Below, one piece after another: positions 14,078-47,411 of a stretch of DNA of 64,000 nt. The stretch is from a virus: positions 1-64,000 of IMG/VR virus record IMGVR_UViG_3300034418_008158. One strand, given 5' to 3'. Numbering within the stretch: position 1 is the first letter of the stretch; each line of letters starts with the position of its first letter. The notes beneath the pieces are model-generated. The model saw only the letters and a program-made list of their open reading frames with translations. It made no database searches and had not been told where the DNA came from. Position numbers and translations under genes: made by a program.

Positions 14078-16162
14078 TTATAAAATTTCGCACCCACTTG
14101 GGCCACAAGCTACTGAATCTTTCTGAGTAGTGTTATCTTCTTCTTCAATGATTTCAGTAAGATTAATATCAGTATTAAGTACGTAATCTAGTTTAGCCTT
14201 AAATACTTCTGGTGAAACTTCTTCAAAAGGTGCATCTCTATAAGTGCCACCATCATAAGGTAAGACAGATAAACCATTGAAAGTGTGCTTGTACTTCCAC
14301 ATCCAAGCTCCTACTGCATCCCATTCATTTACAACTAAATCTCCATCTTGAATATCAGCATTATACGTTAATCCCACATTGTCATCTAGTCCTAATGAAT
14401 ACACCATATCCTTATCTACACTTACAGTAGCAGAAACATTGTTAGTGTTTGGCCCCCTATTGTGCCCTACTTGAACCCATTCAACATTGAACTTTTTAAC
14501 TCTTTCTAGCATTTCAAGAGCATTTTCATTATCTCTTATTAATGCAGTTTGAGGAGCTACTTGAGGAATCCCAATAACAGCAGACATAGGATCATAATCC
14601 ATCTCTTTTATCAATAATGGATGATTTTTTTTAAAGAAATTATAAAGATGATCTCCAATTCTACATTGCATATTTCTAATATACATGGCTGAGTGCCAAG
14701 CATGTATGCCTGAAGAAGTACCCACTACACAAGAGGTTGTTCCTGATGGTTTAATAGTAGTAGTTCTTGCAGCTTTGTTAATACCAATAAGATTAGCAAC
14801 TCTTTCGTTCTCTTTTTTAACTAGTAAAGCAGTTTCTCTAAGATTTAAATCATCAATATTCCCATTACAAATACCAGTAATTCCAACACCAATTAAAGCA
14901 TCTTTTTCAGTATTAGTTTTCCAAATAGTACGAAGATAATGAAAGTCTGAGAATCCTGCTTGAAGAGTCCCAAAGAAGGCAGCTACTCTAGCTCTTTCAT
15001 TAAAGTCATTTTGGAATTTAACCCATAATTGCATACCTTCATCCATACTCTTTCCATCATACTCAGGACTATCTATTTTTCCTACTAACCCTTCTCCAAT
15101 AGTTCCAGCATTGATTTCAGTAAGATTACAAAATGTGTAAGGTCTTAGACTGATCTCACAACATGGATTAGTACCATATTCAGGATCATTAGTAAAGTAA
15201 ATACCAGGTTCTCCAGAATTTGATTCTACAGTTGTTTGCCATAGAGTTTGAAACTCTTCTTCCTTTACTCGATTTCTCAAGATGACAGCAGAGTTATTAG
15301 CTCTACCTCTTTGAGGGTTGAGTTCCCACCAGTTACCAGCTTTGGCAGTAGCCATCTCTTTATCATCCATAGAGAATAAAGCAATAAGAGCAGCTCTTCT
15401 TATACCACCAGCAAGCACTGCATCAGCTATATAACAACAAATATCATGTACTTCAACAGTGGTAAGTTTAGAACCATTTTCTTTTTCGTTTAGAATTGCC
15501 TCTATATTTGTTAAACAAATCCTTAAAGGTTCTGGCCCTGGAGCTTTACCACCAGCAGTTACTAGTCTTTCTCCTTTCTTTCTAATATCAGAATAATCAA
15601 ATCTAGGTCTTACTTTAGTGATTCCAAAATGTGATTTCATTAATTGTTTTACTGCATCAGCCCAGCCTTCAATAGAATCACCTATAAGGTATTTTGCTTC
15701 TTTAGTTGGTTGAATAACCTCTGGCAATTCCCTTACATGATGATATTGTATTGAATAGCCAACACCAGTTCCACCTAAAAGTAAAAACATCAGTTCTGAA
15801 AAACCTCTGTAATCATTTATTGGCATGTAAGAACAATTGTAGATACGTGCTTCATTCTTCTCTATTGCTGGGCCTGCAAATTGTAGGGCTCTCATTGAAG
15901 GTAAAACTTTTTTGTCGTAGAGGTATTGGCTATTGTCGAGAATTTCTTGTACTAAAGGAGTAAATTCTCCTTCTAAAAATTGAGCTTCAGGCCATGTATT
16001 AAAAGCCTCATTATCAAATTGGTTGCCATACTTCTTGATCATCATGGTAAGATAACGATTAATGATTTCATTCCAATCTTCTCTACGCTTTTCTTCAGGT
16101 AGGTACTTAGCATACTTATTATAGGTGACAATGTTACCTAGGATTTCTTGCGTTTTATCCAT
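14078..16162 (-). CDS. Class II (adenosylcobalamin-dependent) ribonucleoside-triphosphate reductase
   Basis: 694 residues that resemble the monomeric B12-dependent triphosphate reductase family. Visible marks: the N-terminal redox cysteine in YNCSY (about residue 108), the loop LLGGTGVGYS, the active-site segment TNPCCEI (about 333) that supplies Asn, the thiyl-radical Cys and Glu, then FCNL, and the C-terminal shuttle pair CGPSGCEIL. The enzyme makes deoxynucleoside triphosphates with a cobalamin radical and needs no separate radical subunit, so it works with or without oxygen but depends on host B12. Neighbours (MazG-like enzyme, dNTP diphosphohydrolase) also adjust the nucleotide pool. Confidence 0.9.
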   Translation of the reverse strand: MDKTQEILGNIVTYNKYAKYLPEEKRREDWNEIINRYLTMMIKKYGNQFDNEAFNTWPEAQFLEGEFTPLVQEILDNSQYLYDKKVLPSMRALQFAGPAIEKNEARIYNCSYMPINDYRGFSELMFLLLGGTGVGYSIQYHHVRELPEVIQPTKEAKYLIGDSIEGWADAVKQLMKSHFGITKVRPRFDYSDIRKKGERLVTAGGKAPGPEPLRICLTNIEAILNEKENGSKLTTVEVHDICCYIADAVLAGGIRRAALIALFSMDDKEMATAKAGNWWELNPQRGRANNSAVILRNRVKEEEFQTLWQTTVESNSGEPGIYFTNDPEYGTNPCCEISLRPYTFCNLTEINAGTIGEGLVGKIDSPEYDGKSMDEGMQLWVKFQNDFNERARVAAFFGTLQAGFSDFHYLRTIWKTNTEKDALIGVGITGICNGNIDDLNLRETALLVKKENERVANLIGINKAARTTTIKPSGTTSCVVGTSSGIHAWHSAMYIRNMQCRIGDHLYNFFKKNHPLLIKEMDYDPMSAVIGIPQVAPQTALIRDNENALEMLERVKKFNVEWVQVGHNRGPNTNNVSATVSVDKDMVYSLGLDDNVGLTYNADIQDGDLVVNEWDAVGAWMWKYKHTFNGLSVLPYDGGTYRDAPFEEVSPEVFKAKLDYVLNTDINLTEIIEEEDNTTQKDSVACGPSGCEIL

Positions 16163-31314: not shown

Positions 31315-31333
31315 ATTAGTGGGGGTTTTGAAG
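31315..31333 (-). promoter_or_regulatory. Phage promoter-like repeat, copy 1
   Basis: Minus-strand element CTTCAAAACCCCCACTAAT, identical in core to copies 2-4, followed by TCTTATAC. It lies 26 bp before the start of the SF2 helicase gene. Confidence 0.75.
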
Positions 31334-37529: not shown

Positions 37530-37877
37530 ACCTGAAATAAAGAAAATAGCATCTAAGTGGCTTGCACATTCTCCAACGCTGCACACCCTAAAGTGCTTGG
37601 CCCTTGATTGCTAAGTTGGACAGCCTACGCCTAACATCTGTCCTGTTATCCTCTTATGATAGTCTTCACGATAGGGAAGTTATATATCACTGAGTCAAAA
37701 TATTCCTAGAAGCTGACGCTGGTTATCTACCCTCCTCACACCATGTAATCATGGATAACGTCCTTCAGAGTGGGTCAATGAAACCTTTTACGCATAGGAA
37801 TAATTCTTTTCCATCACCACCTCTCCCCAAACACTAGTTCATTTGGATCATAAAGGTGGGTCAAGACTTCTTAATTG
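37530..37877 (-). ncRNA. Structured untranslated region downstream of tmRNA
   Basis: About 350 nt with no gene on either strand. On the minus strand it can form hairpins such as GGACAG/CTGTCC around TTAGGCGTA (near 37610-37640) and CCAAA/TTTGG followed by GGAG (near 37815-37840). The TTAGGCGTA string also occurs in the large noncoding RNA near 43470-43485. It may be a separate small RNA or a trailer of the tmRNA transcript; sequence alone cannot decide. Confidence 0.5.
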
Positions 37878-38381
37878 TGGAGGTGAAGGGATTTGAACCC
37901 TTGTCCAGACATAGCTGCAAAATACAGATTATACAAGCTTTTGTAGCTGTTCATGTACATTTAACTGGTAGCAATTACAATCTCAAAGAGATAGTCACTA
38001 GCACTACTGAGTTTCTTCATTATTTGATTCCTTTATAAACTCTAAGATAGGAATAGGACTAACCGAAGTTAATCTCCACCATTTACTTTTGAAAAAAGTA
38101 ACAAAACAAATTAAGAGAGTGTGACACGCCAAACAGTCACATTTATGAGGTTGATTTAGCCTAATCCTCCTCTCTAAAAAACTACGCTGCTACCAAAGAA
38201 TTAACTTTAGGAGAAACATAGATTGCAGTCAGCATATTATGCTCGTAAGCATTCTTCACCTCTGCGGTATTAATTGATTTGCCAATTAACGGTTCAGTGT
38301 ATTTTATATAAGTTAGGATAACACCATCCTTCTGCTTGTCTATAAGTTACACTCTACCCTGTCGATGCCAAGTTCACCCCC
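37878..38381 (-). ncRNA. ssrA: Transfer-messenger RNA (tmRNA)
   Basis: Both tRNA-like ends are present. The 5' end GGGGGTGAACTTGGCATCGACAGGG-type sequence (38381-38357) holds the conserved TCGACAGG signature; its first seven bases pair with CACCTCC at 37885-37879, including a G3-U70 wobble, the alanine identity pair, followed by discriminator A (37878). The T-arm is AAGGG-TTCAAAT-CCCTT (37902-37886). An internal reading frame from GCA at 38265 ends at TAG (38184-38182) and its last residues are NSLVAA, like degradation tags ending in LAA. A CAG/TAG helix partner precedes GGAC near the 3' half. CCA is not encoded. At 504 nt it is longer than the usual 350-400 nt. It would rescue stalled ribosomes with host SmpB. 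Confidence 0.88.
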
Positions 38382-39385: not shown

Positions 39386-39405
39386 AAGTTTATGAATTTA
39401 GTTAG

Positions 39406-39479
39406 TGACCCTGCCAGGACTCGAACCTGGAACCTGCTCATCAGAAGTGAGCTGCTCTATCCAGTTGAGCTACAAAGCC
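39406..39479 (-). tRNA. tRNA-Arg (anticodon UCU)
   Basis: 74-nt cloverleaf: acceptor GGCTTTG paired to CAGGGTC, D-arm GCTC...GAGC, anticodon stem GCTCA/TGAGC with loop CTTCTGA (anticodon TCT), T-arm CCAGG-TTCGAGT-CCTGG, discriminator A. It reads AGA/AGG; AGA is the dominant Arg codon in this AT-rich genome, so it should aid translation of phage genes. Confidence 0.95.
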
Positions 39480-42917: not shown

Positions 42918-43022
42918 TTACTTAAAATAATCTGGATCGCCATCAGGTTTACCAGGACTACCTGGGCCTAAAGTAAACATTATACAAATAAGTATAAGGC
43001 CCACTAATATAAAAGCATCCAT
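42918..43022 (-). CDS. 34-residue membrane peptide
   Basis: Starts in a TAATG overlap with the secreted-protein stop. Residues 3-19 are a membrane segment (AFILVGLILICIMFTLG), followed by a Gly/Pro/Asp-rich tail (GPGSPGKPDGDPDYFK). Coupled translation and a following terminator support it. Confidence 0.6.
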   Translation of the reverse strand: MDAFILVGLILICIMFTLGPGSPGKPDGDPDYFK

Positions 43023-43393
43023 TAATGAGAAATTTTTAAGTACTTACAATAAGGATTATTGGTATTTTTCGACTTGATTAGTACAAAGTATGTGCCTTTC
43101 TTCGATACTCTCACAGGCTTGCTGTCATATGTCTCTGAAGTAGGGCTACCAATCCATACAGGGTAATCATTACCTGTTTTTGGACTGTTGCATATTATGT
43201 ACAAAGAACCACCATTTGTGGCAAATACATCATAAGATGTGCCATCAATCATAATGGTTTCACTTTGATCAATACCAGTTGATACATCAAACCCACCACC
43301 TGAAGAGGTAGAAGCTTCAAACTGTACGTTCTGACTATGCAATGAAGAAGAAATACATATGAATAAAGATAGAATAGGGATTAATTTTTTCAT
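43022..43393 (-). CDS. Small secreted beta-rich protein
   Basis: 123 residues with a Sec signal peptide (MKKLIPILSLFICISSSLHSQ, cleavage near S-Q). The mature part is Ser/Gly-rich with beta strands and two Cys (YIICNS and NPYCKYL). It is the first protein gene behind the large noncoding RNA and may act in the periplasm or at the surface. Confidence 0.65.
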   Translation of the reverse strand: MKKLIPILSLFICISSSLHSQNVQFEASTSSGGGFDVSTGIDQSETIMIDGTSYDVFATNGGSLYIICNSPKTGNDYPVWIGSPTSETYDSKPVRVSKKGTYFVLIKSKNTNNPYCKYLKISH

Positions 43394-43439
43394 GGTTATT
43401 AAGTTTTACTAAAAGGTTATTAAATAATATGGTAAGATA

Positions 43440-44680
43440 AAAAGAAAGACACAAGCCATCATCAGTTAAGCATCTTACGCCTAACCTCAAGCTGTATCTA
43501 TCTCTTTGGGCCTTAGACCACTTCCAAATTAATGGCTGTTAAATATCTTAATGTGCCATTGAACTACACATTTATCCTGTGCTAGTCTGAGGTCGTTAAC
43601 CCTCAGTTACTCCCCTGGCAAGGGTGTTTACTGGATTATCATAATACAAATTGTTGTGTCACACTCAAGTTATGTGGTAATTAATCACAAAGAGCTTGTT
43701 AATATGGTATGAGCCACTGGGTTAAAAATAATGATAGTTTTATAGCTCTCAGACTAAGGGGCTAATACGACCCAAGATATTGCTATCTAGTTATTTTTAT
43801 TAAACCTTGTGTTCTCTCACTGCCTTTAGGGAGTTTGTTGGGTTTAATAAATAAAATGGACTGAGTGCTTTGTCCATTTTGTAAGCGTTAATATCAGCTT
43901 TCGCTTCATACACACACTCCCATTACTGGAAGTAGCTTACATAGTCAGATATAAAGGTTCCCACCTTACTACATTAGCTTTTATAAGATACTTGCTTTCC
44001 TACAGTCTCCCCTGGACAGGGATAAACCAACATTCCCATGCTAGTAAACCAGTAGTAATCCCGTTCTCTTCTCTCTCATAGCTTGAGGCTACTTGAGGTC
44101 ATCATATTGCAGATGAATAAGACCATTTTCAGGCTAATGTGTTGACACGTTTTTTCAGTTTCTTTTAGTTGTCTTGCATGACAATTAACAAAAAATTGGT
44201 GCAAGGTGAATAAAGAATGTCCATTGTGAAGAGTGTAGTGTCAACTTTATACCATGCTATCCGTTTGAGATAGTTTAAGTATGACACCCTTCTGCGTTCC
44301 CCCTGTCAAAGGGTACAATAAGACCATCGCTGGTCTATAACTGTTAACTATTCAAATAAGCACGATTTTCATCAGAGCTTAACGGAATATAACTGTACTT
44401 AGCTTCATTGGCGACAACCAACTACTACATAGTACTATTTAATCTTCCCTGTTCCTCTTTCGAGGTCAACTCTCCCTTGGACAAAGGAGAATACATCATA
44501 CTTAGAGCTAACCAGTTGGCCTTGCTCATACCATACAATGTGTGATTAAATACCTTTCCATCCACAACTAGTCTAAAGACTAATTGCACAAATCACTTAT
44601 CTTTATGTGATTCATCTTATACCTATCACTAGGTTTATGGTTAAGGACATGAAGGCTGCCCTAGTACAAGAGTACTCAAA
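43440..44680 (-). ncRNA. Large structured noncoding RNA (about 1.24 kb)
   Basis: No open frame of note on either strand, framed by promoter repeat copy 4 on one side and a T-rich stretch before the secreted-protein gene on the other. The minus strand has many perfect hairpins: AGACCA-GCGA-TGGTCT (44336-44321) and CCTC-GAAA-GAGG (44465-44454), both GNRA loops; AGC-GAAA-GCT (43905-43896); AAAATGGAC/GTCCATTTT (43880-43853); ATTAAACC/GGTTTAAT (43848-43799); CTGAGG/CCTCAG (43606-43587). A motif CCCTTGCCAGGGGAG-like recurs four times (44471-44490, 44298-44315, 44006-44022, 43610-43626). Size, GNRA loops and nearby tRNA/tmRNA recall ornate phage RNAs such as GOLLD and ROOL, but no homology is claimed. 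Confidence 0.75.
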
Positions 44681-44699
44681 ATTAGTGGGGGTTTTGAAG
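44681..44699 (-). promoter_or_regulatory. Phage promoter-like repeat, copy 4
   Basis: Minus-strand CTTCAAAACCCCCACTAAT followed by TTTGAGTACTC. It stands between a strong terminator and the large noncoding region and has no protein start within 1.2 kb, so it seems dedicated to the RNA. Confidence 0.8.
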
Positions 44700-44712: not shown

Positions 44713-44751
44713 ATAAAAAAGAGTAGCCTAATCCTAAGATTAAACTACTCT
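44713..44751 (-). terminator. Intrinsic terminator
   Basis: Minus-strand 14-bp stem AGAGTAGTTTAATC/GATTAGGCTACTCT with G-U pairs, loop TTAG, then TTTTTT. It closes the 134-residue gene and directly precedes promoter repeat copy 4. Confidence 0.85.
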
Positions 44752-44765
44752 CAACTATCACATCA

Positions 44766-45940: not shown

Positions 45941-46207
45941 TTAAAGGCTAAAGATATTCTCTGCGCCTTTACTTGGATCAATGTTGATTAAGCAAGAATT
46001 TGCCAAATCTGTAACACCATCCACAACAGGAACTAATACCCTTATGGGTAAAGACTCGTCAATGTTGCCTTGAACTCGGAAATTTTGGTCTCCAATGTTC
46101 ATGAACAATTTGTCTGTGGCTTTATTTCTAAGTACTTCAATTGAAGCACTTGGATAACCAATAGCAGACTTAAATTCGCTAATACTCATAAATTGACTCG
46201 TTTGCAT
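45941..46207 (-). CDS. Small paralogous protein A
   Basis: 88 residues, MQTSQFMSISEFKSA start. It shares most residues with the 89-residue protein at 47103-47372: the blocks VLRNKATDKLFM, LPI(R/K)VLVPVVDGV and INIDPSKGAE(N/S) are almost identical. Both are one-gene units between a promoter repeat and a strong terminator, so high early expression is likely. Beta-rich, no membrane segment. No known family; perhaps a host-takeover protein. Confidence 0.75.
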   Translation of the reverse strand: MQTSQFMSISEFKSAIGYPSASIEVLRNKATDKLFMNIGDQNFRVQGNIDESLPIRVLVPVVDGVTDLANSCLINIDPSKGAENIFSL

Positions 46208-47023: not shown

Positions 47024-47042
47024 CCTAGTGGGGGTTTTGACA
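47024..47042 (-). promoter_or_regulatory. Phage promoter-like repeat, copy 6
   Basis: Minus-strand TGTCAAAACCCCCACTAGG followed by TCTTAGTACTAA, 38 bp before the ATG at 46986 and 10 bp after the terminator of paralogue B. Confidence 0.75.
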
Positions 47043-47102: not shown

Positions 47103-47372
47103 CTACAGGGAGAATACACTCTCTGCACCCTTGCTTGGGTCTACGTTTATCAAGCAAGCATTGGCGTAGTCTGATACACCATCTACTACAGGAACCAATA
47201 CCTTGATTGGTAATGCGTTAGTAATAGAGGCCTGAACTCTGTAGTTATCATCGCCTAATGACATGAAGAGTTTGTCAGTAGCCTTGTTGCGTAGCACCGT
47301 AATGGTACTATCAACGTTGTTAGTAGCAGATTTGAATTCAGAGACAGAAAGGAATCTTGATGTGTTTAACAT
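47103..47372 (-). CDS. Small paralogous protein B
   Basis: Start at MLNTSRFLS (47372), aligned with paralogue A and 40 bp after promoter copy 7; the upstream ATG at 47399 lies too close to the promoter. 89 residues. Differences to paralogue A are mostly conservative in the middle (YRVQASITNA against FRVQGNIDES), so both copies are under selection. A strong terminator follows after 10 bp. Function unknown. Confidence 0.75.
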   Translation of the reverse strand: MLNTSRFLSVSEFKSATNNVDSTITVLRNKATDKLFMSLGDDNYRVQASITNALPIKVLVPVVDGVSDYANACLINVDPSKGAESVFSL

Positions 47373-47411
47373 GATAGAAGATTTAGAAATGATGTACAAT
47401 ATTGTACTAGG

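Follow-up and report, generated by a model that had tools for sequence, protein, structure and literature searches.

GOLLD RNAs are encoded by phages or prophages, often near tRNA genes, and we know of no function for the cages that they form. The GOLLD RNA env-38 (RF02032) was resolved by cryo-EM as a 14-mer cage, in which the 5' domain makes the cap, the 3' domain makes the ring and the variable linker lies inside (PMC12286853). The level of GOLLD RNA rises during lysis, and GOLLD pull-downs reportedly contain ribosomes (PMC12286853). ROOL, another large structured phage RNA found near tRNA genes, likewise forms an RNA cage according to the literature. Finally, an abundant 800-nt noncoding RNA of phage ICP1 was likened by its authors to GOLLD and ROOL (PMC7567579). 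Like the RNA described below, the ICP1 RNA is a large phage transcript that lacks ORFs and has a comparable length, but the ICP1 genome has no tRNA genes.

We analyzed a stretch of 64,000 nucleotides of the virus record IMGVR_UViG_3300034418_008158 (the window hereafter), for which the initial annotation had claimed a structured noncoding RNA of about 1.2 kb devoid of any credible gene. The gene-free span, about 1.25 kb in length, was borne out on either strand with the standard code as well as with TAG or TGA as sense. The longest ORF lying wholly inside 43440-44680 has at most 54 aa (table 11), no ORF above 81 aa was found with TAG=Q or TGA=W, and all six frames are interrupted by stops under the three codes. 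The proteins encoded by the flanking genes turned out to be orphans when used as search anchors. The features bordering the span, together with the hairpin motif discussed below, are as follows.

44719..44752, minus strand: intrinsic-terminator-like hairpin closing the upstream transcript (15 pairs, T-run tail TTTTATTTAT)
44681..44696, minus strand: exact copy of the repeat CAAAACCCCCACTAAT, putative phage promoter at the 5' end of the RNA
about 44470-44489, minus strand: fourth copy of the CCCTTGCCAGGGGAG hairpin motif, requiring an indel
44298..44312, minus strand: CCCTTGCCAGGGGAG hairpin motif immediately 5' of the 3' domain (73% identity)
44007..44021, minus strand: CCCTTGCCAGGGGAG hairpin motif inside the 3' domain (clear copy, 87% identity)
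43610..43624, minus strand: CCCTTGCCAGGGGAG hairpin motif inside the 3' extension (clear copy, statistically weak)

The 16-base repeat, proposed earlier as a phage promoter directly 5' of the RNA, is real: the window contains five exact copies and a sixth that carries two mismatches, every one of them on the minus strand, against 0.03 expected. We infer that the repeat serves as a promoter, and its reader is probably a phage-specific polymerase or factor. Copies precede minus-strand operons at 31315, 37500, 40818, 44681 and 46244 (exact) and at 47024 and 47505 (diverged). The strong terminator said to stand before the repeat was found as well, in the form of the 15-bp hairpin and T run at 44752-44719. 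Folding compared with dinucleotide shuffles gave a z of -4.5 for the minus strand and -2.3 for the plus strand, and the GOLLD match described below has the very orientation anticipated for the RNA, namely the minus strand with the 5' end at the promoter. GNRA-capped stems are more numerous than the three claimed (CCUA-GUGA-UAGG, CCUC-GAAA-GAGG, AGACCA-GCGA-UGGUCU, CAU-GGGA-AUG, AAGGU-GGGA-ACCUU and AGC-GAAA-GCU). As for the supposed four-copy motif CCCTTGCCAGGGGAG, two copies are clear, the third is 73% identical and the fourth requires an indel; the set of similar hairpins is real but statistically weak, as 5 of 100 shuffles also gave two matches at three or fewer mismatches. A tmRNA (37875-38381) and a tRNA-Arg (39405-39479) do lie nearby, 4-6 kb from the RNA. 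The tmRNA, on the minus strand, was detected by Rfam and missed by ARAGORN; the near relatives L090, L100 and L103 also possess a tmRNA, and the tag peptide predicted for L090 is unusually long (33 aa). Two similar small proteins of 88 and 98 aa, encoded close together on the minus strand at 45941-46207 and 47103-47399, represent a gene duplication.

The standard Rfam scan of the window reported the tmRNA and the tRNA, and nothing else. When the region alone was scanned with relaxed filters, the GOLLD model (RF02032) was matched from end to end (E 3e-12), and searching all 74 kb of the record recovered the same 44292..43858 as the sole match (E 3.7e-14).

43858..44292, minus strand: GOLLD 3' domain, entire Rfam model 1-416 (51.7 bits)

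The Rfam models of ROOL and OLE, suggested for the same covariance search, gave no match to the region even at E <= 10. Of the two options left by the initial annotation, a novel class of ornate RNA and a distant member of a class already known, the latter stood, the known class being GOLLD, and the former did not. The score of 51.7 bits is far under the GOLLD gathering cut-off of 150 bits, which is a detection threshold and not a structural feature, and independent evidence was therefore sought. The best spurious GOLLD score in 16 crAss-like records was 4.2 bits (E <= 10), and the Rfam GOLLD model matched none of 36 other crAss-like records at E <= 0.001 and none of 50 at E <= 0.01. The window RNA was undetected by a sequence-only HMM built on canonical GOLLDs, and a blastn search of phage records for distant similarity to the RNA found no match. 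The permissive cmscan lost the GOLLD match of the window when run over 20 kb at once, and missed the positive control L101 when 17 gap regions were scanned together, so that the negatives of the latter scan were discarded. Two sequence patterns were tried on their own and rejected: TACTTCCRGNAAN{0,2}GGRAGTG had two matches in viral contigs, both by chance (one was reused as a negative control for cmscan), and GGACAAAGNNCTCAGTCC had three, none of which is GOLLD.

The alignment of canonical GOLLDs comprises a 5' domain, which is absent from the 416-position Rfam model. We built the model R1 from 11 canonical GOLLD 5' domains, from which the window RNA was excluded, and searched the whole window without filters. 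The best match was 44658..44545 on the minus strand with 35.1 bits (E 2.5e-6), the second best having 14.4 bits, and is separated by 252 nt from the 3' domain, which follows downstream on the same strand. As the R1 match and the Rfam match are found at the expected places, both GOLLD domains are present in the correct order, strand and spacing. The elements assigned in the 5' domain and the core are given below.

44545..44658, minus strand: first part of the GOLLD 5' domain, with a P1-like helix, the ATAAACC..GNRA..GGTATAA hairpin and two more hairpins (R1, covariation)
44454..44465, minus strand: CCUC-GAAA-GAGG hairpin in the context UUGA..GGAA, placed and shaped like its counterpart in canonical 5' domains, for instance G077 UUGACCUCGGAAGAGGAAUAGG
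44238..44245, minus strand: pseudoknot 5' strand GUUGACAC (core positions 48-55)
44141..44148, minus strand: pseudoknot 3' strand GUGUCAAC (core positions 145-152, 8 Watson-Crick pairs)
44133..44140, minus strand: 5' strand ACAUUAGC of the long core helix, which is the [[[ ]]] helix of the Rfam structure
43971..43978, minus strand: 3' strand GCUAAUGU of the long core helix, the partner of ACAUUAGC

No model matched 44544-44293, the middle of the 5' domain, and the GNRA hairpin at 44454-44465 is the sole element assigned there, by eye. The pseudoknot has no entry in the Rfam structure: in GOLLD, the first hairpin of the 3' domain has a strand between two of its stems that pairs with a strand past the variable linker, and the pairing is made in most of the reference GOLLD cores from quite different sequences. 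Its core coordinates in the window RNA, 48-55/145-152, compare with 48-54/145-151 in G046, and a local shuffle test puts the chance of eight Watson-Crick pairs at about 0.8%. We observed tRNA-like sequences inside the variable linker of the canonical GOLLDs L206, L205 and L212, matching the literature; the linker of the window RNA (about 44237-44149) has none.

Scanning viral contigs for the conserved terminal-loop motif yielded 67 stretches, and GOLLD was found in 42 of the 50 records tested, with scores between 119 and 332 bits. Seven of these phage GOLLDs, in which the L27 motif is exact, are likewise under the 150-bit cut-off (119-141 bits). The scan for a 5'-domain motif common to the window RNA and GOLLD, followed by R1 and the Rfam model, recovered intermediates at 57-112 bits, and the scores are thus graded from these to the canonical 119-332 bits. 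The records of the intermediates L300, L302, L313, L319, L328, L338/L358, L356 and L361 encode a crAss-like terminase (E 1e-12 to 1e-60), which is absent from the other GOLLD records tested. We then built the model R2 for the 3' end from six crAss-like GOLLD sequences, leaving the window RNA out. R2 matched the window at 43940..43859 on the minus strand with 45.6 bits (E 1.7e-9), the second best match having 11.8 bits.

43859..43940, minus strand: three-way junction, whose AGUAAU loop is specific to the clade, and L27-like hairpin at the end (R2, covariation)
43858..43875, minus strand: L27-like terminal hairpin GGAC-AAAGCACUCA-GUCC (hairpin of 9 bp), followed by AUUUUAUUUAUU

The resemblance to GOLLD env-38 (RF02032; PMC12286853) extends to both domains in order, the pseudoknot, the long core helix, the three-way junction and the terminal L27 hairpin, as well as to about 800 nt between the 5' domain start and L27 and to a phage genome with tRNA and tmRNA genes nearby. 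On the other hand, the window RNA differs from GOLLD in its score far under the Rfam cut-off, in the L27 loop, which in GOLLD is conserved and draws several core regions together (AAAGCACUCA versus GUAAUCUCA; ..CUCA is kept and the remaining loop positions are changed), in the junction-stem loop (AGUAAU versus the UCAAAA type), in the apparently rearranged middle of the 5' domain, and in a further 430 nt at the 3' end that can form a 25-bp long-range helix.

Covariation among the homologues is strong in both structures. With 24 aligned sequences for R1 and ten for R2, 96.0% and 95.8% of the pairs are formed, respectively, and both sides change in 19 of 22 pairs in each; the alignments were fitted to the structures and include related sequences, so that these counts are not of independent events, yet the margin is large. 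None of 500 shuffles reached as high a count in either case, and for R2 no slid register came close either. This evidence bears on two other explanations of the locus. The span might be the degenerate remnant of protein genes, structured by chance, as would suit the fast turnover of small phage genes in this region and the orphan genes on its flanks, but the homologous structure with strong covariation, the conserved synteny (see below) and the stops in all six frames and three codes stand against it. There is no coding frame that could be conserved, and we give this explanation practically no credence, as it is refuted by the covariation among homologues. Alternatively, the RNA may belong to a new ornate class, convergent on or partly resembling GOLLD, and one could point to the score far under the gathering cut-off, the lack of DNA-level similarity to phage records, the failure of the sequence-only HMM and the additional 3' extension. 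Nevertheless, two independent models of different domains and an unmodelled pseudoknot concur in order, strand and spacing, and the graded intermediates connect the RNA to canonical GOLLD; we consider a new class very improbable. Altogether, with homology of both domains, the pseudoknot, the clade-specific loops, covariation and synteny demonstrated computationally, the region is best explained, with high confidence, as a full-length and very divergent GOLLD RNA of a crAss-like clade.

At least ten other crAss-like records carry a GOLLD of this clade. The 5' end of the RNA in the window lies 7.8 kb upstream of the terminase gene (52453) and on the opposite strand, and a GOLLD likewise precedes the terminase gene by about 5-10 kb, again on the opposite strand, in G140, G141, G143, G144, G145, G146, G160, G161, G162 and G036. 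The terminase encoded in G036 (a 105-kb record) is 70% identical to that of the window phage. R2 matched G036 at 14825-14906 (L088:706-787) with 65.3 bits, blastn between the window RNA and the G036 RNA gave 63% identity over 212 nt (E 9e-10), and the Rfam GOLLD model found nothing in G036 at E <= 1. The shared position in spite of so diverged terminases suggests that the clade GOLLD is of old vertical inheritance with losses, although a preferred insertion site may alternatively account for the conserved position. Besides position and orientation, the clade GOLLDs and the window RNA have the AGUAAU junction-stem loop and the ACUCA terminal loop in common, and the CUGNAAUAUG loop is found in most of them. 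They differ in the spacing of the pseudoknot, which is 58-63 nt in the clade GOLLDs and 97 nt in the window RNA. When R2 was run on 15 named phages, crAss-like or of Flavobacterium, and on further records, none of the named phages was matched, but the copy in the window escaped the same search, so that absence from these phages is not shown, and Rfam scans of the gaps in Flavobacterium phage FPSV-D18 and G005 gave nothing credible. None of the papers searched mentions GOLLD together with crAss-like phages, though an earlier sighting may exist.

Two further observations were made on the relatives. The terminases of the GOLLD-carrying crAss-like phages L397, L395, L396 and L405-L407 are deeply diverged (that of L397 is about 25% identical to those of named Crassvirales), and these phages are possibly an undescribed lineage. 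At L087:281-508 and L089:595-822 (G012 and G002, respectively), ARAGORN detected a tRNA with the CUA (amber) anticodon beside a tRNA match by Rfam that extends across 143 nt, as though the tRNA gene held an insert; this suggests stop-codon reassignment in G012 and G002.

The clade GOLLDs of G036 and L302 have no visible counterpart of the sequence that follows the 3' domain in the window.

43430..43857, minus strand: noncoding 3' extension past the known GOLLD 3' end (about 430 nt; no counterpart seen in G036 (L088) or L302)
44524..44554, minus strand: 5' arm of the long-range helix, in the 5' domain (13/14 + 12/12 pairs)
43676..43714, minus strand: 3' arm of the long-range helix, located within the extension (complementary to the 5' domain over 25 bp)

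The 13/14 complementarity is between 43676-43689 and 44541-44554, the 12/12 complementarity is between 43703-43714 and 44524-44535, and the order of the two segment pairs fits one interrupted helix. The single 12-bp run is reached in 1.2% of shuffles, and two collinear runs are much rarer by estimate, not by computation. We infer that the extension is part of the RNA and closes the 5' domain. Still, the RNA in G036 and L302 stops at L27 and is followed by T-rich DNA, and L27 is followed by AUUUUAUUUAUU in the window too; such a U-rich stretch after L27 implies that the transcript could end near 43850. GOLLD would then end at L27 (about 43850) and 43430-43850 would be a separate element, either a 5' leader for the gene that lies downstream (43022-43393) or a small RNA binding the GOLLD 5' domain. 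Against this count the 25-bp complementarity to the 5' domain (through which a separate RNA could bind as well), the absence of a second promoter repeat between 43850 and 43400, and the absence of a terminator call at 43850. We hold a separate element to be plausible but not the likelier arrangement.

On the GOLLD reading, the promoter at 44681-44696 would drive minus-strand transcription of an RNA whose 5' domain would start near 44658 and whose 3' domain would end at 43858, and the extension may reach about 43430. Judging from the solved GOLLD structure, the RNA copies would join via A-minor contacts and kissing loops to form a closed, hollow cage of RNA with the variable linker facing inward (PMC12286853). 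The cage would presumably accumulate during infection and would likely enclose or sequester translation-related cargo such as tRNA, tmRNA or ribosome parts, the choice of cargo being conjecture. Through the 25-bp long-range helix, the cap formed by the 5' domain would be locked by the 3' extension. We also raise, tentatively and as something we would not yet bet on, that an ancient subfamily of GOLLD, passed on vertically and unrecognised by Rfam, exists in crAss-like phages, and that a third, 3' domain here closes the cap by the 25-bp helix, giving a new cage architecture or stoichiometry.

The window RNA is a new divergent GOLLD variant in a crAss-like phage, and its clade is largely invisible to the current Rfam model. 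As the clade model gives 65 bits in G036, where Rfam finds nothing, the current Rfam model misses whole clades; a rebuilt GOLLD model would make the true spread of this RNA measurable and supply varied sequences with which the conservation of inter-chain contacts could be examined. The conserved position in crAss-like genomes ties GOLLD to a phage order with cultured members, in which tests are possible.
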